Source: Candidatus Limicola stercorigallinarum (GTDB lineage: Bacteria > Actinomycetota > Coriobacteriia > Coriobacteriales > Coriobacteriaceae). Taken from it: a stretch of DNA of 33,864 bases. The notes beneath the pieces are model-generated. The model had not been told where the DNA came from, ran no database searches, and saw only the letters and a list, made by a program, of their open reading frames with translations. This document shows positions 12,457-22,577 of the stretch, piece after piece (the first letter of the stretch is position 1; the number at the start of each line of letters is the position of its first letter). Where the stretch lies: NCBI GenBank assembly GCA_018711625.1, contig DVID01000031.1, forward strand, positions 1-33,864, in the 5' to 3' direction. The position numbers and the translations under genes were made by a program.

Positions 12457-12780
12457 TTATCCGAAACAAACGACACCAGTTGTCAACTCATCCCACTTTA
12501 ACTTGAGACATTCCGAATGCTCAACCACCCACTTCGACGCCTTTGCACGCTTCTTCGCGGGCAGATTACCAGCTATCACCTTTCCAGAGGGAATCTCAAG
12601 CACAATCTCTTTATCCTGATAGCGAGCGTGAAGGTGGGGCGTATTGTGTCCCTTTTCTGCAGTGTGGATGATAAACTCGATTCCACTGCTTTTACCCACA
12701 CGCGCGCGTTGAAACACGTAATCAAAAATGTCTATCCAATCGCTAAGTCCAGGCTTTTCCTGCAAATACCATTGTTCCAC
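12457..12780 (-). CDS. DUF4160 domain protein
   Basis: This 107-residue protein carries the DUF4160 core: a HNTPHLHARY segment followed by KEIVLEIPSGKVIAGNLPAKK and a helical WVVEHSECLKLKWDEL, matching the family pattern of HNPPHFHA followed by a short beta-hairpin and helix. DUF4160 proteins are small, often sit in toxin-antitoxin-like pairs with DUF2442 proteins or in mobile regions, and have no proven function. No DUF2442 partner is seen here. The start is GTG at 12780, with GGAGAG about 7 bases upstream. It is divergent from the restriction-modification operon. Confidence 0.65.
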   Translation of the reverse strand: MEQWYLQEKPGLSDWIDIFDYVFQRARVGKSSGIEFIIHTAEKGHNTPHLHARYQDKEIVLEIPSGKVIAGNLPAKKRAKASKWVVEHSECLKLKWDELTTGVVCFG

Positions 12781-12984
12781 CTTCCGTCTCTCCTTCCATG
12801 TACTCAGCCTCGCAACCCCACCAGGTCATAAAAGACTTATGGGATTCGATTCTAACGTCGCTATCTAAATCCACGAAAGCTGTCGATAAGCGACGTCTCT
12901 GTCAGACCTGTCCTAAAAAATGAATTCGTGCCTTTAAAAAATTACAAACTAAATATTGACTCCTTTTGCCAAGGAGAGTACAAC

Positions 12985-13026
12985 ATGATCAACGTTCAAT
13001 ATGTGGTTTTAAGAAGGCACATATGA
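12985..13026 (+). CDS. 13-codon leader peptide coupled to the half-S gene
   Basis: A strong ribosome binding site (AAGGAG at 12971-12976) precedes ATG at 12985 and a short frame encoding MINVQYVVLRRHI. Its stop codon TGA overlaps the ATG of the next gene in an ATGA arrangement at 13023-13026. This looks like translational coupling of the first restriction-modification gene to a leader peptide. It may alternatively be a chance frame, since the half-S gene also has its own weaker AAGAAGG site. Confidence 0.4.
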   Translation: MINVQYVVLRRHI

Positions 13027-13601
13027 TTAGCATCAAAAGCCTCGCATCGTTCGAAACTGGCACTGCTCAATTCCGCATCAGAGAAGACACGGGTGCAGAT
13101 TCGAAAACCTACTCGTTCTACACCCAAGCCGATCTCGATGATGATCTGAAGCAGATGCCCACCTCCCAAACTACGCGGAAATGCATGCGGACATCCGATT
13201 CCGTTGTCACGGTCGCAACCGGCGATGTGCTATTTAGCCTCGTGTCCGGGAGTGCCGCAATAGTTCAGGCAGAACGCAGCGGCCTCCTCATCACGCAAAA
13301 CTATGTGGTAATCAAGCCCTCGAATAATATTGACCCCCGCTTCCTTGTTTACCTCCTTAATGAAAACCCTGAGATAAGGAAGCAGCTGCGCATAGGACAA
13401 CAGGGGTCGGCAACTATGAAATACACACTCAAGCAGCTAACTTCTCTACAAGCTCCTCCAATCCCAGACTTTCGAAGACAAGCGCTTATTGGGGAAACCT
13501 ATTTAAATCAACTCAGACTCACAGCACTAAGAAACCATGCTTCTGAATTAGAAACCATGCTCGTATTTGACATGCTCAAGGAGGCAAACCACCATGAATG
13601 A
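13023..13601 (+). CDS. Single-domain (half) type I specificity subunit-like protein
   Basis: The 192-residue product resembles one target-recognition domain plus one helical spacer of a type I S subunit: VVTVATGDVLFSLVSGSAAIVQ, NYVVIKPSNNIDPRFLVYLL and QLTSLQAPPIPDFRRQALIGETYL follow the family pattern of GDVL..., Y.... and L...IP.P...Q..I. It lacks the WEQRKLG and LITLHQ border repeats found in the other S genes of this locus, so it does not take part in the same shuffling. Its last eight bases overlap the start of hsdR (ATGAATGA), which implies coupled translation. Half-S proteins can dimerise to replace a full S subunit; whether this one binds DNA or serves as an accessory is unknown. Confidence 0.6.
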   Translation: MISIKSLASFETGTAQFRIREDTGADSKTYSFYTQADLDDDLKQMPTSQTTRKCMRTSDSVVTVATGDVLFSLVSGSAAIVQAERSGLLITQNYVVIKPSNNIDPRFLVYLLNENPEIRKQLRIGQQGSATMKYTLKQLTSLQAPPIPDFRRQALIGETYLNQLRLTALRNHASELETMLVFDMLKEANHHE

Positions 13602-16600
13602 AGCGACGTTTGAGACAGAGCTTATCCAGTTTCTATGCAGCGGAACCATCTCCCAAACAAACGGCGAATGGGGCGTAGTTCGCGAGAACCCAGTTGACTA
13701 CGTCACAAAAACAAAGCTCTGGTCGTATGAACCGCATATCAAAACCACCGAGCAACTCTGGGGCAACTTCAAAACAATTCTGGAGCGCCACAACCAGAAG
13801 GCGCTTGACCATCCCCTCAGCAGCGTCGAATTCGCTCAAGTGAAGCGCGTGATATCTGATCTTCAGACGCCCTACCAGGCCGGTCAATTTCTCTATGGCC
13901 TCAATGGAGTCTCGCAAATTGAAGTCGACCTAGACGATGGACGCCATGTTTTTCTCACCGTCTTTGACCAGAGCCAAATTGGAGCTGGAGACACAATTTA
14001 CCAGGTAGTAAACCAAATCGAGCGTCCGGCAAAAATCCCTGGTAAACAAAATCGACGGTTTGACACAACGCTTCTCATCAATGGCTTGCCTATCATCCAA
14101 ATCGAGGAAAAGCGCGATACGCATGACGTTGATGAAGCACTCGAGCAGATGCATCAATACATTGACGAGAATCAATACCAGGACATATTTTCGACCCTTC
14201 AAATCCTTGTTGCCATAACACCAAACAACGTTAAGTACATGGCAAACACCACATCACGGGCATTCAATAAAGACTTCGCATTTCATTGGCAACGCAAGAG
14301 CGACAACAACGTTGTGCGCAACTGGAAAGAGTTTGCCGATTCGATGCTCTCTATTCCCATGGCACACCAGATGGCTACCAACTACATGATTCTGGACGGG
14401 ACAAAAAACAAGCAATGCCTTAAAGTGATGCGTCCCTACCAGGTTTATGCAACTCAAAAAGCGATTGAGGAAATTAGGAAAACGGATTTTGACCTTGGAA
14501 CCAACAAGATTGGTTATATCTGGCATACAACCGGTTCGGGAAAAACCATCACCAGCTTTAAGACCGCTTGGCTCGCAAGCCGCATGCCAGGTGTAGACAA
14601 GGTCGTATTCCTAGTAGATCGAATCGCCCTTACCAAACAAACGCTAGAGAACTATCGAGCCTATGACCCGGATGCATCTGACGATGCACTCGGAACCATT
14701 CGGAACACCGACAATACGGGAGACTTGAGCCGCAAGCTCAAATCAAAAGACAACAGCATCATCGTGACCTCAGTGCAGAAGCTTGAACGACTCGTGAAGC
14801 GTAAATCGTTCACAGCACCCGAAAAGAACATCGTCTTCATTGTTGATGAGGCACATCGCTCAACGGGAGGCGAAGCCTTCCAGGCAATTCAAAAGGCGTT
14901 TAAGCGCGCCGCGTGGCTTGGTTATACCGGTACGCCTATGTTTGACGAAACGACTACAGGACTTCGCACAGAAGACATCTTTGGCAAGCTTTTGCATGCC
15001 TACACTATTCGCGAAGCCATCGCGGACCGCAATGTCCTCGGTTTCCAAGTAGATTTTGAAACAACAATTCCCGAGAAGGCAATGAGGGAGGAGTATCTCC
15101 CCCGCTTCTATCGCGAACGACATCCAGACTGGTCTGAGGAACAGATTTCATACAAGATTGCCCATCTCACCCAAGATGATATGGACGATGCCATTGAGCC
15201 AAGTTTCTACGATGAAAACCCCGATCACGTAAAAGAGGTAGTAAGGGACATCTTCGACAATTGGCGCAACAGGTCTGCAGACGGCAAATACAACGCCATT
15301 CTTACTACGCATGTAGGTGGAGGCAGAGCCTCCACGCCTATGGCAATGATGTATTTCAAGGAATTCCAGGAAGTAAACGCCGAGCATCGCGCTGAAGGCA
15401 AGCCAACACTAAAGGTGGCAGTCACATTTAGCCAAAACACTTCCAATAACGAGAGCATGCTTGAAACCAATCGTGGACTTTATGAGGCTATAACCACATA
15501 CAATGCGGAATTTGGCACTTCTTGGGGCATGGATGATGTCTCGGCATACACGCAGGATGTCATGTCTCGACTGAATAAAACTGCAGACGATGGCGTTTTC
15601 CTCGATCTGGTAATTGTCGTTGATCAACTCCTTACCGGATTCGATGCACCCGAGCTCAATACGCTATATGTCGACCGAACACTTAAGGGCGCCAGCCTAA
15701 TCCAGGCGTATTCACGCACTAACCGCATTGCAGACATGCAAGAGAAGCCATGGGGTCACGTAGTCAACTATCGTTGGCCAGCCCAAAACGAGAGGCTCAT
15801 GAATCGCGCATTGGCAATATATGCCAATAAAAACTCTGCCAACCTGTCCGACGATGAGCGCGGAAAGCAGAACGTGCTCGACGGTATCACCGCCCCACAG
15901 TTTGAAGAAATATTCCAGCAGGTGCAAGAAAAAGTCTCGAAGCTCGATGACCTAACCCAAGGTTTTACGCAGCTACCGCCCTCAGAAAAGCAAAAAGACT
16001 ATATGCTCAATTTGCTGCGCGAGTACAACTCGGGCATGGCAAAACTCAAGCAGTTCAAACCAGAGAATGTCGATGGGAAGAAAGTGGGATTCGATTATGA
16101 AACCCCCGAAGAGCTCGTGCGAGCACTTGGCATGGAGCCAGAACAAGAGGTGATGTTGACCACCGTGCTGGCGAATGAGCTTAAACAGCATATTGCCAAG
16201 GTCAAACAAGTCCCAGTCTATGAAATAGAGCTGCGAATGACGCATGTCAAAGAAATCAAGATTGACTATGACTACCTAACCGAACTTATAGAAACTCTCC
16301 TGAACGCCGTTCATGAAGGCAAAATCGATAAGGTCGAAGAGACCAGAACCAAAATCGAACAATTCGCAAACGGACTTGATGACCGCGTATATGCCGGAAG
16401 AATCATCAAGGCAGCAGGTGCAATTGTACGAGGCGATTATCCTTCTCAGGGATCAGACATTACCTATCCCGTAAAGCTCAACGACCAGGGCGATGGCGAG
16501 AAGATTATTAGAGATGCCAGCAATGCGAGCATAGATCGCACGCTGCTCGATTTCCGTCTTAAGTGGGGTATTACGGATATAGTCAAAAGTGCTGATTTGC

Positions 16601-16800
16601 GCGAGCTATTCAGCAGGCACCGGTTTGGGCAACGCGACCTCGATGATTCTGGAGCAATTTCGAACATTATTTCTGAGGCCTCGGCTGCATACAAAACGAT
16701 GTCACAGGACGAAGCTGTACGCGCATTGTCTCGCATCAAATATCGCAATGGTCTCCGCGATGCCATGTACGACATGGCTGACAGCCTCACAGATCACTAA
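13594..16800 (+). CDS. hsdR: Type I restriction endonuclease R subunit (HsdR)
   Basis: The 1068-residue protein is a full-length type I restriction motor-nuclease (EcoR124-like size). The N-terminal PD-ExK nuclease is visible as FDTTLLINGLPIIQIEEK (Asp157, Glu171, Lys173), followed by the QYQ region. Superfamily 2 translocase motifs follow: Walker A HTTGSGKT (Lys317), VDEAH (418-421), GYTGTP, and the motif VI stretch GASLIQAYSRTNR. It cleaves DNA lacking the methylation pattern after ATP-driven translocation, in complex with two HsdM and one HsdS. The ATG at 13594 has AAGGAGG about 10 bases ahead; the longer frame from 13567 lacks a site. hsdS follows nine bases later. Confidence 0.95.
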   Translation: MNEATFETELIQFLCSGTISQTNGEWGVVRENPVDYVTKTKLWSYEPHIKTTEQLWGNFKTILERHNQKALDHPLSSVEFAQVKRVISDLQTPYQAGQFLYGLNGVSQIEVDLDDGRHVFLTVFDQSQIGAGDTIYQVVNQIERPAKIPGKQNRRFDTTLLINGLPIIQIEEKRDTHDVDEALEQMHQYIDENQYQDIFSTLQILVAITPNNVKYMANTTSRAFNKDFAFHWQRKSDNNVVRNWKEFADSMLSIPMAHQMATNYMILDGTKNKQCLKVMRPYQVYATQKAIEEIRKTDFDLGTNKIGYIWHTTGSGKTITSFKTAWLASRMPGVDKVVFLVDRIALTKQTLENYRAYDPDASDDALGTIRNTDNTGDLSRKLKSKDNSIIVTSVQKLERLVKRKSFTAPEKNIVFIVDEAHRSTGGEAFQAIQKAFKRAAWLGYTGTPMFDETTTGLRTEDIFGKLLHAYTIREAIADRNVLGFQVDFETTIPEKAMREEYLPRFYRERHPDWSEEQISYKIAHLTQDDMDDAIEPSFYDENPDHVKEVVRDIFDNWRNRSADGKYNAILTTHVGGGRASTPMAMMYFKEFQEVNAEHRAEGKPTLKVAVTFSQNTSNNESMLETNRGLYEAITTYNAEFGTSWGMDDVSAYTQDVMSRLNKTADDGVFLDLVIVVDQLLTGFDAPELNTLYVDRTLKGASLIQAYSRTNRIADMQEKPWGHVVNYRWPAQNERLMNRALAIYANKNSANLSDDERGKQNVLDGITAPQFEEIFQQVQEKVSKLDDLTQGFTQLPPSEKQKDYMLNLLREYNSGMAKLKQFKPENVDGKKVGFDYETPEELVRALGMEPEQEVMLTTVLANELKQHIAKVKQVPVYEIELRMTHVKEIKIDYDYLTELIETLLNAVHEGKIDKVEETRTKIEQFANGLDDRVYAGRIIKAAGAIVRGDYPSQGSDITYPVKLNDQGDGEKIIRDASNASIDRTLLDFRLKWGITDIVKSADLRELFSRHRFGQRDLDDSGAISNIISEASAAYKTMSQDEAVRALSRIKYRNGLRDAMYDMADSLTDH

Positions 16801-16809
16801 GGAGTCAAT

Positions 16810-18018
16810 ATGGGCAAGCCTAAACAGAATGTTCCTAAACTCCGCTTTCCCGGTTTCACTGACCCTTGGGAACAGCGTAAGCTGGGGGAGGTTGCCACTG
16901 TTGTCCGAGGCGAGCGCTTTACGGCGAGCGATTACGTTTCCGAGGATGGTATTCCCTGCATTCACTACGGAGAAATATATACCTCCTACGGTTCGGTAGC
17001 GACCTCGACCATCTCACAGGTGCGGAAGGAGTTGAGGCCAACCCTTCGCTTCGCAGAACCTGGAGACATCATTGTGGCGGGCACGAGTGAGAATGTCGAG
17101 GACGTTTGCAAGGCGGTCGTTTGGCTGGGAAACACGCAGGTAGCGTATCACGACGACAGTTTTGCTGTCTCCTTCAGCGGTGATCCCGTCTTCTTGGCGA
17201 GCTACTTCCAGACAGGGGAGTTCTTTTCGCGCAAAACCTCAGCTGCGCATGGGGTGAAGGTTATGAGGGTGAGCCGCGAAGCTTTGATGAGCATCGTGAT
17301 TCCAACCCCATCTCTCCCTGAGCAGTACCTCATCGGCGCCTTCTTCCGGGACTTCGACGACCTCATCACCCTTCACCAGCGTGAGCTCGACAACGTCAAG
17401 CTGCTGAAAAAGTCACTCCTCCAAAAGATGTTCCCGAGAGACGGTGCCGACGTCCCGGAGCTCCGCTTCCCCGGTTTCACTGACCCTTGGGAACAGCGTA
17501 AGCTGGGGGATGTGGTGAATCGTGCAAGCAGTGCTTGCGATGATGCCCACCTTCCCAGAGTCGAATATGAAGACATCAACTCTGACGAAGGCACGCTAAA
17601 CAAGCCTATTAAGAAGCTCGGACACAGCAAAAAAGGAATTATGTTTTCACCTGGTGATACCCTTTATGGGAAGTTACGCCCTTATCTTCACAACTGGCTG
17701 AAACCGCACTTCAAAGGTGTTGCTGTTGGGGATTTTTGGGTGCTGAAACCAAAGGAGATTGACTCAGACTTCCTCTACCGAATAGTACAAAGCGATGCGT
17801 TCGACAAATTGGCGAATGTATCTGCAGGTTCAAAAATGCCACGCGCCGACTGGAGTCTCATTAGCAGTTCATATTTCTCAATGCCCCATAAAGCTACCGA
17901 GCAGCGCCTCATCGGCTCCTTCTTCCGGGACGTCGACGACCTCATCACCCTTCACCAGCGTGAGCTTGATCATGTCAAATTGCTGAAAAAAGCGCTTCTC
18001 CAACAGATGTTTGTCTAG
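16810..18018 (+). CDS. hsdS: Type I restriction-modification specificity subunit (HsdS), active copy
   Basis: The 402-residue protein has the standard two-half layout. Each half starts with LRFPGFTDPWEQRKLG, continues with a distinct target-recognition domain (about residues 25-170 and 240-360), and ends with a spacer helix containing DDLITLHQRELD followed by LLKK.LLQ.M. The two halves share near-identical DNA at their borders (repeats A1/A2 and B1/B2), unlike the divergent recognition domains between. It sets the DNA sequence bound by the methylase and nuclease. GGAGTCAAT before ATG 16810 overlaps the hsdR stop region. hsdM follows at once. The same border repeats recur in two silent cassettes downstream, one of them inverted, so this gene is likely rearranged by the nearby recombinase. 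Confidence 0.93.
   Translation: MGKPKQNVPKLRFPGFTDPWEQRKLGEVATVVRGERFTASDYVSEDGIPCIHYGEIYTSYGSVATSTISQVRKELRPTLRFAEPGDIIVAGTSENVEDVCKAVVWLGNTQVAYHDDSFAVSFSGDPVFLASYFQTGEFFSRKTSAAHGVKVMRVSREALMSIVIPTPSLPEQYLIGAFFRDFDDLITLHQRELDNVKLLKKSLLQKMFPRDGADVPELRFPGFTDPWEQRKLGDVVNRASSACDDAHLPRVEYEDINSDEGTLNKPIKKLGHSKKGIMFSPGDTLYGKLRPYLHNWLKPHFKGVAVGDFWVLKPKEIDSDFLYRIVQSDAFDKLANVSAGSKMPRADWSLISSSYFSMPHKATEQRLIGSFFRDVDDLITLHQRELDHVKLLKKALLQQMFV
16840..16890 (+). repeat. Repeat A1 (first WEQRKLG border in hsdS)
   Basis: This copy and A2 at 17461-17510 match at 49 of 50 bases by eye. The core CTTGGGAACAGCGTAAGCT (16865-16883 here) recurs inverted in the minus-strand silent cassette and direct in the plus-strand one. 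Such identity at DNA level, flanked by unrelated recognition domains, marks a recombination border. Confidence 0.85.
17329..17392 (+). repeat. Repeat B1 (spacer border after first recognition domain)
   Basis: This segment encodes LIGAFFRDFDDLITLHQRELD and closely matches B2, B3 and B4, with perfect identity through CTCATCACCCTTCACCAG. It lies between the first recognition domain and the second A repeat. Confidence 0.8.
17461..17510 (+). repeat. Repeat A2 (second WEQRKLG border in hsdS)
   Basis: The second copy of repeat A, with its core at 17486-17504. It is in inverted orientation to A3 at 20196-20214, so recombination would exchange the second recognition domain and invert everything between, including hsdM. 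Confidence 0.85.
17897..17958 (+). repeat. Repeat B2, inverted partner of B3 across hsdM
   Basis: These 62 bases match the reverse complement of 19712-19773 at 61 positions by eye. They encode EQRLIGSFFRDVDDLITLHQ near the HsdS C-terminus. Together with B3 they bracket the S-subunit tail, hsdM and its terminator. Confidence 0.88.
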
Positions 18019-18034: not shown

Positions 18035-19627
18035 ATGAATAACTTGCAGACTATTTCATCAAAACTGTGGGCGATGGCCAATGAACTCCGCGGCAACATG
18101 GACGCCTCTGAATACAAGAACTATATTCTTGCCTTCATGTTCTACCGCTACCTCTCTGAGCATCAGGAAAACTACCTCGTAACCAACAATGTTCTTGATA
18201 TTGAGGAAGGCCAGTCGGTAAACCAAGCCTATCTTGAGCAGGCAGCTGGAAGCGACTTGGCAGACTACCTTGAAGACATCTCTTCAAGCTTGGGATATGC
18301 CATTGCACCTCAGGATACTTGGCATTCCCTTATTGAAAAGATTGAAAACAGCAACATCATCCCGAGCGATTATCAAACCATGTTTGATAACTTCAACAAT
18401 AATGCCTCACTTAACAAGGAGGCAGCCCAAGATTTTCGCGGCGTATTTAACGACGTGAACCTCGGTGATTCACGACTTGGTTCGACAACTAATGAACGCG
18501 CCAAGTCCTTGAATCGCATTGTCAAGCTTGTCGATAGCATCGACTACAAAGGTGAAAACGGCGAGGATATCCTAGGCGCAATCTACGAGTACCTTATCGG
18601 CCAATTTGCTGCGTCAGCAGGAAAGAAAGGCGGAGAGTTCTACACCCCACACGAGGTAAGCGAGATTCTATCTAGGATCGTCACCCTTGGAAGAACCAAA
18701 TCGGACGAGTTCTTCACCGTCTACGACCCAACCATGGGTTCTGGATCGCTGCTACTAACCGTTGGCCAGAATTTGCCTGAGGGGCAACCAATAAAGTACT
18801 ACGGCCAGGAGCTAAACACGACCACCTATAACTTGGCGCGCATGAACCTCATGATGCACGGCGTCTCGTTCAACAACATGTACCTATCCAACGCAGACAC
18901 ATTGGGCTCAGATTGGCCTAACGGCCTTGATGCCAAGGGCATCGATGATCCCAATTGCTCGTTTGATGCCGTTGTGGCCAATCCCCCCTACTCAGCCCAT
19001 TGGGACAACAACGAAACAAGGCTCAAAGACCAGCGCTTCAAAGACTACGGCGGTAAACTTGCTCCGCGGACAAAGGCGGACTATGCGTTTGTTCTGCATA
19101 GCCTTTATCATCTTGGCAACGAGGGAACGATGGCAATCGTCCTTCCCCACGGCGTACTGTTCCGCGGAGCCGCCGAAGGAATTATCCGTAAGAACATCAT
19201 CGACAAAAACTATCTTGATGCCGTCATCGGCCTCCCTGCTAATATCTTTTATGGCACCGGCATCCCAACTGTTGTCCTCATCTTCAAGAAGAACCGCACT
19301 ACAAAGGACATCCTGTTCATTGATGCTTCTCAGGAATTCGAAAAGGCTAAAAACCAGAACCGCCTCACCGAAGATCACATCTGCAAAATCGTGGAAACCT
19401 ATCAGAAGCGCGAAGACGTGGAGAAATATGCCCATGTAGCGGGCATTGATGAGATTCGCGAAAACGACTACAACCTCAACATTCCTCGCTATGTTGATAC
19501 CTTTGAGCAGGAAGAAGAGATTGATATCAACGATGTTCTTCGCCTGCTGGAGCAGGACAAGCGAGAGATAGCCGAGCTTGAGTCCAAGATCTCATCAACC
19601 CTTAATGAGCTTGGCGTAAAACTGTAA
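18035..19627 (+). CDS. hsdM: Type I DNA adenine methyltransferase M subunit (HsdM)
   Basis: The 530-residue product is a complete N6-adenine methyltransferase subunit. It has the N-terminal helical domain (LWAMANELRGNMDASEYKNY), the GGEFYTPHEVSEIL segment, the S-adenosylmethionine motif DPTMGSGSLL from residue 231, and the catalytic NPPY at 316-319. It methylates the sites defined by HsdS and is also needed for restriction. The frame opens at a TTG at 18011, but AAAGGA is about 10 bases before the ATG at 18035. It lies downstream of hsdS, and a perfect terminator follows. Uncommonly, it sits between inverted hsdS repeats and could itself be flipped. Confidence 0.95.
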   Translation: MNNLQTISSKLWAMANELRGNMDASEYKNYILAFMFYRYLSEHQENYLVTNNVLDIEEGQSVNQAYLEQAAGSDLADYLEDISSSLGYAIAPQDTWHSLIEKIENSNIIPSDYQTMFDNFNNNASLNKEAAQDFRGVFNDVNLGDSRLGSTTNERAKSLNRIVKLVDSIDYKGENGEDILGAIYEYLIGQFAASAGKKGGEFYTPHEVSEILSRIVTLGRTKSDEFFTVYDPTMGSGSLLLTVGQNLPEGQPIKYYGQELNTTTYNLARMNLMMHGVSFNNMYLSNADTLGSDWPNGLDAKGIDDPNCSFDAVVANPPYSAHWDNNETRLKDQRFKDYGGKLAPRTKADYAFVLHSLYHLGNEGTMAIVLPHGVLFRGAAEGIIRKNIIDKNYLDAVIGLPANIFYGTGIPTVVLIFKKNRTTKDILFIDASQEFEKAKNQNRLTEDHICKIVETYQKREDVEKYAHVAGIDEIRENDYNLNIPRYVDTFEQEEEIDINDVLRLLEQDKREIAELESKISSTLNELGVKL

Positions 19628-20239
19628 ACACGCGCCGAACCATTGATGAGCAGTGTATTGGGGCACCTGGGAGACTCTGATCCCAGGTGCCCCGCTCTTT
19701 TCTCCCTTACACTGGTGAAGGGTGATGAGGTCGTCGACGTCCCGGAAGAAGGTGCCGATGAGGCGCTGCTCGGCAAGAGACGGAATTTGGATTTTCATGC
19801 CAGAAAGCACTGGTCCGGATATCTCGAGGAATGTTGAACCGGATGCATGTACCTCTGCCCATCTTTTGATTGACGGTGTTATCGAGTAGATGAAGTACAC
19901 GTCTTCGTTGTCGTGAACTACCAGTGACTGAAAACCTTGGTTTGTGCATGCTGACCTGCGCAGAATTGAGGCTGATCCAATTCCTGCACGGCTAGTAAAG
20001 AGAATGGTTTTATCCGCTGGAAGCATGGTTGCCGAACAAGCTTTGTAGCCGGCTTCCGTAATTTTTCGAACGCTTGAGTAAGCGTAGATCCCGGTACCGA
20101 TTTCGGCAGGCGTAAACCAGTCGATGTTTCCATTCCAGTAGGCTGGGTTGCTTGTTTTGGGAGTTCCGCCGCCGATTATATTGGCCACTTCTCCAAGCTT
20201 ACGCTGTTCCCAAGAATTATCTGCGCTGCACGAGCGGTG
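19595..20239 (-). CDS. Silent, inverted hsdS specificity cassette (half S subunit, no start codon)
   Basis: Read on the minus strand, this frame opens after a stop at 20240-20242 and runs through WEQRKLGEVANIIGGGTPKT, a complete recognition domain (PAYWNGNIDWFTPAEIG to LEISGPVLSGMKIQIPSL) and AEQRLIGTFFRDVDDLITLHQ. Homology to HsdS ends there; the remaining residues are only the hsdM terminator and the hsdM 3' end read backwards. IGGGTPKTSNPAYWNG is a well-known recognition-domain start. No ATG or ribosome binding site precedes WEQRKLG (a GTG at 20188 is the only late option), and no promoter is evident. It is best read as a storage cassette able to replace a half of hsdS by inversion. Confidence 0.8.
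   Translation of the reverse strand, partial: HRSCSADNSWEQRKLGEVANIIGGGTPKTSNPAYWNGNIDWFTPAEIGTGIYAYSSVRKITEAGYKACSATMLPADKTILFTSRAGIGSASILRRSACTNQGFQSLVVHDNEDVYFIYSITPSIKRWAEVHASGSTFLEISGPVLSGMKIQIPSLAEQRLIGTFFRDVDDLITLHQCKGEKSGAPGIRVSQVPQYTAHQWFGACLQFYAKLIKG
19660..19693 (+). terminator. Rho-independent terminator after hsdM
   Basis: Arms GGGGCACCTGGGA (19660-19672) and TCCCAGGTGCCCC (19681-19693) form a perfect 13-base-pair stem with an 8-base loop, followed by GCTCTTTT. It ends the hsdR-hsdS-hsdM transcript. It lies between hsdM and repeat B3, and so inside the segment predicted to invert. Confidence 0.9.
19712..19773 (-). repeat. Repeat B3 (inverted copy in silent cassette)
   Basis: The reverse complement matches B2 at 61 of 62 bases by eye. 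Homology to hsdS stops exactly at CTTCACCAG, beyond which the sequence becomes the hsdM terminator region. This sharp end suggests a recombination junction. Confidence 0.88.
20196..20214 (-). repeat. Repeat A3 core (inverted)
   Basis: The reverse complement is the 19-base core CTTGGGAACAGCGTAAGCT shared with A1, A2 and A4. A3 and A4 face away from each other across a 58-base spacer. Confidence 0.85.
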
Positions 20240-20272: not shown

Positions 20273-20823
20273 CTTGGGAACAGCGTAAGCTGGGGGACTA
20301 CTTGTCTCTGTCAACGCAAAAGAACGCAAGCCTGGAATTCGGAGTCAGCGATGTTCTCTCGGTCTCTTGGGCTGAGGGCATCGTCAACCAGATCGAGTTT
20401 CAGGGGAGGAGCTATGCGGGCGCGGACCTGTCGGGCTACGACGTCGTGGAAAGGGGCGACGTAGTCTATACCAAGTCGCCGCTTAGGGACGAGCCATACG
20501 GGATCGTAAAAACAAATCGCGGCAGCTCAGGAATCGTCTCCCAACTCTATGCCGTGTATCACCCACTGCCTAACGCCGACTCGGGGTTCGTGGAGCATTA
20601 CTTCGGGCTTGCCGACCGGTTGAACAGGTACTTCAAGCCGTTGGTGAACAAGGGCGCTAAGAACACCATGAACATAAGTGATGCCGGGACCCTCCAGGGA
20701 ATGGTGTCTTTCCCTTCCCTCTCCGAGCAGCGCGCGATAGGCGCGTTCTTCTCACGGCTGGACGAGCTCATCACCCTTCACCAGCGTGAGCTTGCAACCT
20801 CTCGTCAGCGATCGCCCCGATAG
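20248..20823 (+). CDS. Silent hsdS specificity cassette (half S subunit, plus strand)
   Basis: The open frame after the TAG at 20245 reads AWEQRKLGDYLSLSTQKN, then a recognition domain (DVLSVSWAEGIVNQIEFQG through MNISDAGTLQGMVSFPSL) and SEQRAIGAFFSRLDELITLHQRELATSRQRSPR. It is a full recognition domain with both border repeats but no proper start codon (the only candidates are rare-type codons such as TTG at 20302 inside the domain) and an abnormal short C-terminus. It is in the same orientation as hsdS, so it would need first to be reoriented by inversion at B3/B4 before entering hsdS by inversion. The recombinase gene follows 107 bases later. Confidence 0.78.
   Translation, partial: KHLSLCARAWEQRKLGDYLSLSTQKNASLEFGVSDVLSVSWAEGIVNQIEFQGRSYAGADLSGYDVVERGDVVYTKSPLRDEPYGIVKTNRGSSGIVSQLYAVYHPLPNADSGFVEHYFGLADRLNRYFKPLVNKGAKNTMNISDAGTLQGMVSFPSLSEQRAIGAFFSRLDELITLHQRELATSRQRSPR
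20273..20297 (+). repeat. Repeat A4 (plus-strand cassette)
   Basis: Twenty-five bases beginning with the 19-base A core and continuing with GGGGGA are identical to A1 and A2. Homology with A1/A2 ends abruptly on the upstream side. Confidence 0.85.
20764..20794 (+). repeat. Repeat B4 (plus-strand cassette)
   Basis: These 31 bases are identical to the LITLHQREL-coding part of B2 over most of their length and are inverted relative to B3 at 19712. The upstream part of the B repeat is more diverged in this copy. Confidence 0.75.
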
Positions 20824-20930: not shown

Positions 20931-21857
20931 TTGTTCAACGAAATACATCGCACTGATCCGTTTTGCGATTATTACAGACAGTGGATTACCATCTACAAGG
21001 AGGGAGCCGTTCGAAAAGTTACCCTAAAGAAGTACCTTCTCACTCTTTCCTGGCTGCAAAAGTTGATTCCAGACCTTGCGATAAGTGAAATGGACAGGAT
21101 GGCATATCAAAAACTCTTGAATGCCTATGCAGAACACCATGAACGTCAAACAGTTATGGATTTCCATCATCAGCTAAAAGGGGCGATTCTCGATGCCGTT
21201 GACGAAGGACTGATTGACCGAGATCCAACCCGAAAAGCAATCGTAAAAGGCAAGACACCGAGAAAAAAGAAAAAGAAATACCTCAACCAGTTTGAACTGC
21301 ACGAACTTTTGAGTGGTCTTGATTTACAACCTCAGATCAATTGGGATTGGATGATTCTCCTTATTGCTAAGACGGGGCTGCGCTTTTCTGAAGCATTGGC
21401 CATTACGCCAAGAGATTTTGATTTCTCTCGACAGGTGCTGTCTATCAGCAAAACGTGGGACTACAAAGAAGGAACGGGCTTTCTTCCCACAAAGAATAGG
21501 TCATCAGTAAGAAAAGTAGCTATTGATTGGCAGCTTATTGTCCAGTTCTCAACGCTAGTAAAGGAGCTACCCGAAGATAGCCCCATTTTTGTTCATGGTC
21601 GTGTCTACAATTCAACAGTAAATAACCTGCTAGCACGACGCTGTGCTCAGGTAGGAATACCAACAATATCCGTACATGGCCTTAGACACACTCATGCATC
21701 CCTTCTCCTTTTTGCAGGAGTATCTATAGCCAGTGTGGCAAGACGCCTCGGCCATTCAAGCATGAACACCACTCAGAAAACGTACCTTCACATCATTCAA
21801 GAGCTTGAAAACAAAGACGTCGACCTTGTTATGAGGTCATTATCTGGACTCACATAG
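20931..21857 (+). CDS. Tyrosine recombinase, probable hsdS invertase
   Basis: The 308-residue protein is a phage-integrase-family tyrosine recombinase. The N-terminal SAM-like core-binding domain (about 10-95) precedes a catalytic domain with Arg151 (TGLRFSEA), Lys188, His249-x-x-Arg252 (HGLRH), His275 (GHSS) and Tyr285 (TYLHI). All six catalytic residues are present, so it should be active. The start is TTG at 20931, with AAAGGAG 9 bases ahead. Its place directly after two silent hsdS cassettes matches known phase-variable type I systems, where a co-located recombinase inverts hsdS segments. It could alternatively be the integrase that inserted the island, but no attachment repeats were seen. 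Confidence 0.88.
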   Translation: MFNEIHRTDPFCDYYRQWITIYKEGAVRKVTLKKYLLTLSWLQKLIPDLAISEMDRMAYQKLLNAYAEHHERQTVMDFHHQLKGAILDAVDEGLIDRDPTRKAIVKGKTPRKKKKKYLNQFELHELLSGLDLQPQINWDWMILLIAKTGLRFSEALAITPRDFDFSRQVLSISKTWDYKEGTGFLPTKNRSSVRKVAIDWQLIVQFSTLVKELPEDSPIFVHGRVYNSTVNNLLARRCAQVGIPTISVHGLRHTHASLLLFAGVSIASVARRLGHSSMNTTQKTYLHIIQELENKDVDLVMRSLSGLT

Positions 21858-21935: not shown

Positions 21936-22577
21936 TTATCCGATACTTCGCCAGTCTTGCCTAGTCACAATTAAATGGTCTAAAACCCTAATTCCGAGCA
22001 GTTCACCAGCAGATTTGAGCTTCTTCGTAACCTGCTCATCCTCAAACGACGGCTCAGCACTTCCACTAGGATGATTGTGAGCTAGAATAATCGATGCAGC
22101 GCGATCCTCTATGGCTTTGGCAAATATCTCTCGTGGGTGAACAAGACTTTCGGTGAGTGTTCCCTGGAAAATGATGGCGTTGTCAATGAGTCGATTGGCC
22201 CCGTCAAGCGTAAGTACAACGAAACACTCTTGTCTCTTGTTCTTCAAATACCCCAGCTGGTGAATTGCATCTTCTGGACTAGTGATCACGGGACGATCAG
22301 AAGGCATGAGATAGCGACGGCCAAGCTCAAATAGGGCGACAATCTCGCTCGTCTTTGCGGGGCCCATACCAGATATGCTAGCAACCTCTTGGTAGGTAAT
22401 CTTGTCACCGTGGAGCTTAAGCAACTTAAGCAGTCGCTTTGCTATCCGTTCAGCAGAAGCTTGTTGGTTTCCGCTTCCAATCAGAATACAAAGTAGTTCT
22501 AAATCAGTGAGGTTTTCAGCACCAAATTGCTTCAGTTTCTCCCTCGGCATCAAGTCGGCCATGGCCACCTCACCCAT
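21936..22577 (-). CDS. radC: RadC family JAB/MPN-domain protein
   Basis: The 213-residue protein has an N-terminal helix-hairpin-helix region (YQEVASISGMGPAKTSEI, residues 62-79) and a C-terminal metalloprotease-like JAB1/MPN domain with the JAMM ligands His167, His169 and Asp180 in HNHPSGSAEPSFED. RadC proteins were once linked to DNA repair, but their function is unproven; they often lie in mobile and defence regions. Two starts are possible, ATG at 22577 (GGAG 4 bases upstream) and ATG at 22562 (GGTGAGGTGG upstream); I kept the longer one. It is convergent with the recombinase gene and has the AT-richer composition of the island. Confidence 0.9.
   Translation of the reverse strand: MGEVAMADLMPREKLKQFGAENLTDLELLCILIGSGNQQASAERIAKRLLKLLKLHGDKITYQEVASISGMGPAKTSEIVALFELGRRYLMPSDRPVITSPEDAIHQLGYLKNKRQECFVVLTLDGANRLIDNAIIFQGTLTESLVHPREIFAKAIEDRAASIILAHNHPSGSAEPSFEDEQVTKKLKSAGELLGIRVLDHLIVTRQDWRSIG

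Follow-up and report, generated by a model that had tools for sequence, protein, structure and literature searches.

C proteins of type II restriction-modification (RM) systems are small, operon-leading autoregulators of the helix-turn-helix type that act on operators located at the promoter, which help activate transcription at low protein levels. The same logic of an operon-leading autoregulator is proposed here for a half-size specificity protein (hereinafter half-S) which, however, is a single-recognition-domain (TRD) protein derived from HsdS, the specificity subunit of type I systems. As proposed for the half-S, RptR is encoded by a small autoregulator gene upstream of type I operons, forms a homodimer and binds a palindromic site; it differs in that the homodimer is helical and the site is the 6-bp palindrome TAGCTA, and the accessible text of the report describes no relation to HsdS (PMC12255303).

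Single-TRD S proteins, namely those of the "type 1 1/2" methyltransferases M.AhdI, M.PshAI and M.BsaBI and of EcoR124I-NT, the EcoDXXI deletions and NgoAV, dimerize and, together with HsdM, read interrupted palindromes (PMC3874165, PMC2877798, PMC3320862), e.g., GAAN7TTC for EcoR124I-NT and TCAN8TGA for an EcoDXXI deletion; M.AhdI is a natural "type 1 1/2" methyltransferase with the composition 2M+2S (PMC2877798, PMC3874165). In these enzymes, the single-TRD protein is the sole or a truncated S subunit, whereas the half-S coexists with a full S, and its apparent sites are concentrated at its own promoter.

The staphylococcal hsdS_short, published in 2023 by Schiffer et al., who proposed a methylation-support role, belongs to the same family as the half-S: two entries listed in that report recur here, the Staphylococcus aureus plasmid CP076840 as a member of our profiles A1 and A3, and CP013716 as locus L075 (PMC10030836). 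The staphylococcal members in A1 and A3 show 27-28% identity to the half-S described below. The hsdS_short protein (191 aa) is fixed, separate from the long S, and encoded by the first gene of an hsdSMS unit with its own promoter (PMC10030836). In Escherichia coli, with expression from a foreign promoter, one system dropped from 93-94% methylation to 32-49% (of narrower motifs) when hsdS_short was left out, and the second system dropped from 97-98% to no methylation at all; hsdM mRNA without hsdS_short was 0.36-1.23-fold, plasmid-borne hsdS_short was toxic, and complementation failed (PMC10030836). These data, which cover mRNA and methylation, point to a role of hsdS_short in the enzyme itself, and may reflect either a second, structural role or reduced HsdM translation. 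The methylome table, in the accessible part of that report, includes no extra half-S motif (PMC10030836), but a 10-bp half-S site would probably be too rare to be called in such a table. For one staphylococcal type I system, a further accessible source notes the presence of two specificity subunits and considers phase variation (PMC13417997).

The staphylococcal gene is already known, and what appears to be new here is the reach of the family, the operators, the pairing with an HsdM homolog that lacks the NPPY motif, and the regulatory interpretation. The accessible text on hsdS_short describes neither operators nor regulation (PMC10030836), whereas here the family is extended to other phyla, to BREX loci and to paired operators. 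A search of the literature, with subscription journals mostly missing and preprints outside its scope, found no description of any of these, be it the wider family, a half-S regulator, these operators or the NPPY-less partner.

The half-S gene, its product and its neighborhood

The half-S of the locus analyzed here (Table 1; the window is the entire 33,864-nucleotide stretch of DNA under analysis) is a 192-aa protein and, in a search of the window's own 1.96-Mb assembly, the sole match at E ≤ 1. The coordinates of the two open reading frames (ORFs) bear out the 8-base overlap of its 3' end with hsdR that was noted in the initial annotation. The PADLOC models for type I specificity subunits (Specificity_I) match the protein with an E-value of 1.6e-10, whereas a comparison with Pfam yields no match of any kind. 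In phmmer searches of the PDB, single half-S proteins retrieve chance matches only, and a profile was required: a 21-member half-S profile identifies the HsdS crystal structures 5ybb (7.8e-13), 3okg and 1yf2, with E-values in the range of 8e-13 to 7e-11. The AlphaFold2 model (11 sequences, mean pLDDT 90.1, pTM 0.83) consists of one TRD followed by one 41-residue helix (residues 150-190) and superposes on halves of the PacII, EcoKI and EcoR124I S subunits with Z-scores of 10.0-14.2; its best fold matches are TRDs of HsdS proteins and of methyltransferases. Homology to HsdS thus extends over the TRD and the dimerization helix, with one copy of each in the chain and not the two TRDs of a full S subunit, in agreement with the single recognition domain already assigned to this protein.

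Another stand-alone protein of about 190 residues, Esub1 (PDB entries 8vsq and 8vsr), aligns along its entire length with the half-S model (Z 13.6-14.0, TM 0.63-0.68). Esub1 shows no match to the half-S sequence profile even at an E-value of 10, and no paper on it was found in literature searches. It was co-crystallized with "Prx", which may be the phage protein paratox; if so, a phage may target half-S-like proteins.

No border repeat is common to the half-S and the hsdS region: the longest common word, on either strand, is 11 bases, compared to a mean of 10.8 for shuffled sequences. With no border repeats in common with hsdS or the cassettes, a truncated or shuffling hsdS fragment, or a broken hsdS, is ruled out, and the characterization of this gene as a fixed, non-shuffling half-S that opens the RM operon is upheld. 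Across the 15 loci in which all four genes are recognized, mean pairwise identity is 44% for the half-S, 68% for HsdR, 74% for HsdM and 34% for the full S. In the same loci, identity of the half-S tracks that of HsdR (Spearman coefficient 0.63) better than that of the full S (0.27), although the correlation between HsdR and HsdM is tighter (0.87). The half-S is a real gene of a distinct, fixed family. Like hsdS_short, the half-S of the window is a fixed half-size S homolog encoded beside a full type I system.

Table 1. Features of the half-S locus, with positions in the window
Feature	Position	Strand	Basis or comment
O1, predicted upstream operator, GTGCC-TTTAAAAA-ATTAC, 5-8-5 bipartite near-palindrome	12928..12945	.	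Matrix rank 1
Predicted -35 box TTGACT, 10 bp after O1	12956..12961	+	Best promoter of the 130 nt upstream; spacing as in relatives
Predicted -10 box TACAAC, 17-bp spacer	12979..12984	+	Best promoter prediction
Leader frame MINVQYVVLRRHI, 13 residues	12985..13026	+	Judged a chance frame; contains O2
O2, predicted downstream operator, GTGGT-TTTAAGAA-GGCAC, overlaps the half-S Shine-Dalgarno sequence	13003..13020	.	Position, relatives
half-S, single-TRD HsdS-like protein with C-terminal dimerization-type helix	13023..13601	+	Proposed DNA-binding autoregulator
hsdR, type I restriction subunit	13594..16800	+	Pfam HSDR_N, SWI2_SNF2, EcoR124_C; TIGR00348 above cut-off
hsdS, full two-TRD specificity subunit, variable	16810..18018	+	Two Methylase_S stretches
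hsdM, intact NPPY and DPTMGSG	18035..19627	+	N6_Mtase, E 1.5e-110; motifs
hsdS fragment, inverted	19595..20188	-	S match; cassette region, inverted, has a 39-base word in common with hsdS
hsdS fragment	20302..20823	+	S match; cassette region, direct, has a 28-base word in common with hsdS
Tyrosine recombinase of the S-shuffling module	20931..21857	+	Phage_integrase, E 7e-19

The hsdM of the window is likely to be the partner of the half-S as well as of hsdS. Homologs of the tyrosine recombinase were found in several half-S loci and not in others, i.e., this gene is dispensable for the unit of half-S and operators. The restriction island is bordered by radC (Pfam RadC; 21936-22577 of the window, minus strand). 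In genome G485, radC directly precedes hsdR (positions 2173-2802 of locus L159, minus strand), and a radC-like C-terminal coding sequence was recognized by eye upstream of the half-S in several loci of the order, so that radC may be an integration hotspot for this restriction system. Just upstream of the half-S promoter lies a small ORF (window 12457-12780, minus strand) whose score against the DhiT toxin family (NCBIfam NF048015), 56 bits, stays below the cut-off of 100.

Members of the half-S family are encoded in Coriobacteriales, Lactobacillales, Pasteurellaceae and Bacillales. In the order of the window, 9 of 297 genomes contain a member at E ≤ 4.8e-54, and the next scores, from 3e-10 on, belong to other HsdS-like frames. 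At E ≤ 1e-20, the half-S occurs in 19 of 345 genomes from the Granulicatella order, in 14 of 121 genomes from the Histophilus family (one of the 14 Pasteurellaceae copies, that of G1464, carries an in-frame stop), and in 1 of 344 genomes of the order of a Lachnospiraceae metagenome-assembled genome (MAG), namely, the MAG itself; additional members reside on plasmids of Staphylococcus, Ligilactobacillus, Halobacillus, Sutcliffiella and Leuconostoc. Of the relatives identified, the closest with a name is Enorma phocaeensis An718, a member of the same genus as the window. Used as a single-protein query against genome and viral contigs, the half-S of the window identified no relative, and none was found in phages with the E. 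phocaeensis half-S as the query. A match in genome G002 (24% identity) was rejected as a half-S: it is a fused methyltransferase-specificity protein.

For comparison of gene neighborhoods, 53 loci were reduced to a non-redundant set of 41 at 75% half-S identity (the 12 merged loci are L009, L037, L075, L118, L119, L134, L135, L137 and L141-L144; L145-L147 were used for the partner-motif and site scans only). In 40 of the 41, the half-S directly precedes hsdR (25 loci; the hsdR of L040 was read in two pieces and those of L130 and L114 only in part), hsdM (12), an NPPY-less HsdM homolog (2), or an S fragment followed by hsdR (1). None of these genes comes next in the remaining locus, on a Leuconostoc plasmid. 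When hsdR is taken as the starting point, 10 of 337 genomes encode an hsdR of the window's subfamily (E ≤ 1e-130), and 9 of the 10 possess an intact half-S directly upstream; in the tenth, G485 (a short contig in an 82%-complete genome), radC precedes hsdR and there is no half-S. Loss or frameshift of the half-S in most relatives with an intact hsdR, which had been named as an outcome that would count against the gene, is thus mostly not what is found. Twelve hsdR loci that belong to the family at a greater distance (37-43% identity) lack a clear half-S member upstream; the weak profile match upstream in one of these (L021; 22.9 bits, E 7e-9) is in the range of other HsdS-like frames. The terms "orphan" and "unusual" that were initially applied here do not hold, given that these systems regularly include the half-S, whose staphylococcal version was published in 2023 (PMC10030836).

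Two loci depart from the common organization. The Leuconostoc plasmid is conjugative and carries a lone half-S (L005, 8983-9585) beside cytosine and adenine methyltransferase genes, with no hsd match nearby and no operator found; this half-S is perhaps a decoy or a regulator that acts on a host type I system. Locus L124 encodes, within 2162 nucleotides from the half-S start, a half-S and an intact HsdM, and no full hsdS or hsdR match was found in the 13.5 kb downstream.

Bipartite palindromes at the half-S promoter

Paired palindromes that flank the half-S promoter, with the consensus GTAAT-N8-ATTAC, are the decisive clue to the proposed role of the half-S; in the window, they lie largely outside the segment 12985-13601 covered by the initial annotation. 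The palindromes were first seen by eye in the upstream regions of 23 loci and tested afterwards. The exact sequence is present within 130 nt upstream of the half-S in 20 of the 41 loci and in none of 296 control upstream regions (the mean for shuffled sequences is 0.02), and two exact sites are present in 8 of 41 loci vs 0 of 296 controls. With one mismatch allowed, the counts are 26 of 41 vs 2 of 296, and with two mismatches, 33 of 41 vs 26 of 296. The control regions come from ORFs of at least 250 aa on either strand of the same loci, so that not all are true promoters, and composition is covered by the shuffles. Among the 21 non-redundant loci that were fetched after the motif had first been noticed, 8 contain an exact site, and clustering at 50% identity leaves 9 of 22 with an exact site. 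Outside these upstream regions, the scan of 56 loci gives three exact sites; exact copies lie inside the downstream operons of two related loci, at +3258 (L118) and +3244 (L147) after the half-S start. The 12 control hsdR loci without the half-S family have no exact site; one contains a site with one mismatch and two contain an unrelated 5-8-5 palindrome.

The spacer is fixed: among spacers of 0 to 19 nucleotides, exact matches number 28 at N8, one at N15 and none at any other length. A loose spacer test with 6-mer arms and one mismatch was uninformative and was redone with exact arms, in which case even spacers other than 6 and 8 were also raised over controls, an effect put down to AT-rich upstream regions and self-complementary arms. 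The half-sites vary with the half-S clade, while the 5-8-5 geometry is kept: GTAGT is found in staphylococci, GTTAT in one group of Pasteurellaceae, and GAAAT in three divergent loci of the Granulicatella order (L129-L131). A half-site matrix, trained on the same loci, detects at least one site in 36 of 41 loci and at least two in 27, compared to 1.1 and 0 for shuffles. It finds no site in L005 and L129-L132; in L005 and L132, no site was found otherwise either. In 26 of the 27 two-site loci, the two sites are separated by 62-78 bp, and in the remaining one by 88 bp. From the end of the upstream site (O1) to the -35 box, the distance is 8-13 bp in 28 of 34 loci (82% vs 15% with the downstream sequence shuffled; the O1 of L008 was set by hand in this count). 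The distance of the downstream site (O2) from the -10 box is variable. Predicted operators at the promoter of the half-S itself are the arrangement of an autoregulated restriction operon.

When Coriobacteriales loci are left out of the training of the matrix, O1 ranks first of 33,847 18-mers in the window, at 13.3 bits vs 9.3 for the runner-up. It aligns with GTAAT-N8-GGCAC in E. phocaeensis and Collinsella An268. The form GTGCC-N8-ATTAC has five matches in the window's genome vs two in the control; therefore, O1 is not unique genome-wide, and this count does not single it out. By itself, O2 is weak (rank 10 of 33,847) and rests mainly on its position, where the two closest relatives have GTAAT-N8-GGCAC.

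The 13-residue leader, which the initial annotation had coupled to the half-S, does not share in this conservation. The frame and its ATGA overlap with the half-S start are indeed there, but of the 41 loci only the window has a leader-type frame (a short frame with an ATG and a Shine-Dalgarno (SD)-like sequence that ends within 25 bases of the half-S start), and 12 contain any such short frame. Lack of conservation of the leader, which was to be checked as an adverse outcome, is thus what is observed. The leader ATG directly follows the predicted -10 box, its SD (12971-12976) lies inside the promoter spacer, and the half-S has its own SD-like sequence, AGAAGG, at 13012-13017, so that little weight can be given to the much stronger ribosome-binding site that was ascribed to the leader. 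The leader is probably not transcribed, and it is best read as a chance frame that runs across promoter and operator and would not be part of the system.

NPPY-less HsdM homologs paired with the half-S in Ligilactobacillus

In plasmids of Ligilactobacillus salivarius, an HsdM homolog of 462-471 aa is encoded directly 3' of the half-S, and two further partners of this kind (463 and 473 aa) come from one other Ligilactobacillus genome. The N6_Mtase profile matches the two partners tested with E-values of 5e-72 and 2e-69. Nevertheless, all seven partners examined (five from L. salivarius plasmids and two from the one genome) lack NPPY: motif IV reads DMPL in four and DPPM, a milder change, in three (the partners in L076, L118 and L147), and the SAM motif is altered in all seven. 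By comparison, 32 of the 33 HsdM-type proteins of the non-redundant loci retain NPPY. From these substitutions, the partner is probably inactive, i.e., a dead HsdM, and a half-S acting as a regulator together with it would be a natural counterpart of a nuclease-dead Cas protein used as a repressor. The only exception among the 33 is a second HsdM-like protein in L115, encoded beside a normal HsdM by an ORF that starts 8191 nucleotides after the half-S start; SDIQF replaces NPPY in its motif IV, and it is possibly another dead HsdM.

The pair of half-S and NPPY-less HsdM precedes a type I system, BREX, or an MmeI-like methyltransferase with a helicase. Strains AR809 and SS-258 of L. salivarius share the left flank, an integrase and the pair, which are followed by different defense genes; this region would be a defense-swapping slot behind one control module. 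In a comparison of L076 (9001-10948) with L147 (9001-10951), BREX is found in one locus and the MmeI-like methyltransferase with the helicase in the other. Given that the partner of the half-S is not expected to methylate and that the pair is located before unrelated defense systems, a control module fits these observations much better than a specificity subunit.

Proposed role of the half-S and alternatives

Taken together, these observations suggest that the half-S is an HsdS half-subunit turned transcription factor for its own operon, whose dimers, probably with HsdM, bind O1 and O2; we put the probability of this reading at roughly 0.78. Because two matching sites flank the promoter, the half-S most likely switches its own defense genes rather than choosing new cutting targets. 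Two copies of the half-S would pair via the C-terminal helix and would probably be held on two HsdM subunits, as in the type 1 1/2 methyltransferases, and the dimer would read the symmetric bipartite site, GTAAT-N8-ATTAC or a clade-specific variant. HsdM is the likely co-binder given that, according to a figure legend for EcoKI, neither S nor M binds DNA alone (PMC3874165). Known type I enzymes methylate at intervals of 6-9 bp (Table 1 of PMC3874165); at corresponding symmetric positions, with spacings of 6 or 8 bp, the operator matrix shows T or C instead of A on the strand that would receive the methyl group. If the same geometry applies here, the complex would bind its site and leave it unmodified. 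The O2 site, between the -10 box and the half-S ribosome site, would become occupied once half-S and HsdM accumulate, and the complex bound there would be placed to block the start of transcription or translation; the most likely outcome would be a block of whole-operon transcription, i.e., negative feedback. At its fixed distance upstream of the -35 box, and hence in fixed phase with it, O1 could contact RNA polymerase and may help activation at low levels. The fixed position of O1 fits activation as well as repression; net negative feedback is our first choice, with activation at low level possible. Such feedback would hold restriction at a safe level and tie the output of hsdR to the supply of HsdM while hsdS shuffles.

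Of the roles guessed in the initial annotation, the paired promoter sites favor a regulator of restriction, and an alternative specificity subunit is disfavored, given that the half-S is conserved and the full S variable (44% vs 34%) and that the apparent sites are concentrated at the half-S promoter. The latter role, in which half-S homodimers with HsdM (and HsdR) would constitute a second modification/restriction enzyme of palindromic specificity, is suggested by the architecture, which is the same as that of the homodimers of M.AhdI, NgoAV and EcoR124I-NT, and by the intact HsdM of type I loci, but we consider it improbable: the apparent 10-bp site is too rare for a modification target (GTAAT-N8-RTTAC does not occur in the 1.96-Mb genome), the matrix has T or C and not A at spacings of 6 or 8 bp, within the 6-9 bp of the known methyl intervals listed in the accessible source (Table 1 of PMC3874165), and NPPY is missing from the partner in Ligilactobacillus. 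In type I loci, HsdM is nevertheless catalytically intact by its motifs, so that half-S and HsdM may methylate some site there. The proposal of Schiffer et al., that the protein is a structural or assembly subunit which stabilizes HsdM-HsdS binding for proper methylation, is a less likely but tenable explanation. It draws on the E. coli methylomes with and without hsdS_short (PMC10030836) and on the near-constant presence of the half-S in the operon; however, the loss of methylation in the hsdMS constructs could stem from weaker hsdM translation, and an assembly role leaves unexplained the paired promoter sites, the half-S with an NPPY-less HsdM before BREX or an MmeI-like system, and L124, a locus of half-S and HsdM whose fetched region yields no match to S or R. 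A structural role could also be true together with the regulatory one.

The palindromes themselves could be interpreted without binding by the half-S. If O1 and O2 were crossover sites of a recombinase, the promoter between them would invert, causing phase variation, and the half-S would be incidental. The sites do flank the promoter, several loci encode a homolog of the window's tyrosine recombinase, two resolvase-type genes lie just upstream in the Halobacillus locus L007, and the core spacers are exact inverted copies in L007 and L114 and identical in L006 and L125. Still, the core spacers match in only these 4 of the 27 two-site loci, and L007, L074, L121, L122 and L128 have both sites with no homolog of this recombinase, the type that was searched for, in the fetched regions, which makes inversion of the promoter the least credible of the explanations considered here. 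It is also quite unlikely, albeit somewhat less so, that another, unlinked regulator binds the palindromes and the half-S does not. Sites of ordinary dimeric repressors have rather similar arms and spacing, but the palindromes accompany the half-S in Actinomycetota, Bacillota and Gammaproteobacteria as well as at type I, BREX and MmeI-like operons, the half-site changes with the half-S clade, and, among the genes looked for, the half-S alone is common to these loci.

The autoregulatory reading might extend beyond this operon. We consider it somewhat more probable than the contrary that these proteins are an unrecognized class of bacterial transcription factors built from type I parts, in which a fixed half-HsdS, together with HsdM or a dedicated dead HsdM, controls type I, BREX and MmeI-like operons through bipartite operators of the type I style. 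The sites are short and exact, and therefore the idea is directly testable. Proteolysis and assembly have been the main explanations both for the survival of a new host that receives a type I system and for the control of restriction during hsdS shuffling. If real, a half-S autoregulator with mapped operators would account for these directly at the level of transcription in a widespread group of systems, would offer an explanation for the puzzling staphylococcal hsdS_short, and would show how an enzyme of DNA modification can turn into a transcription factor.
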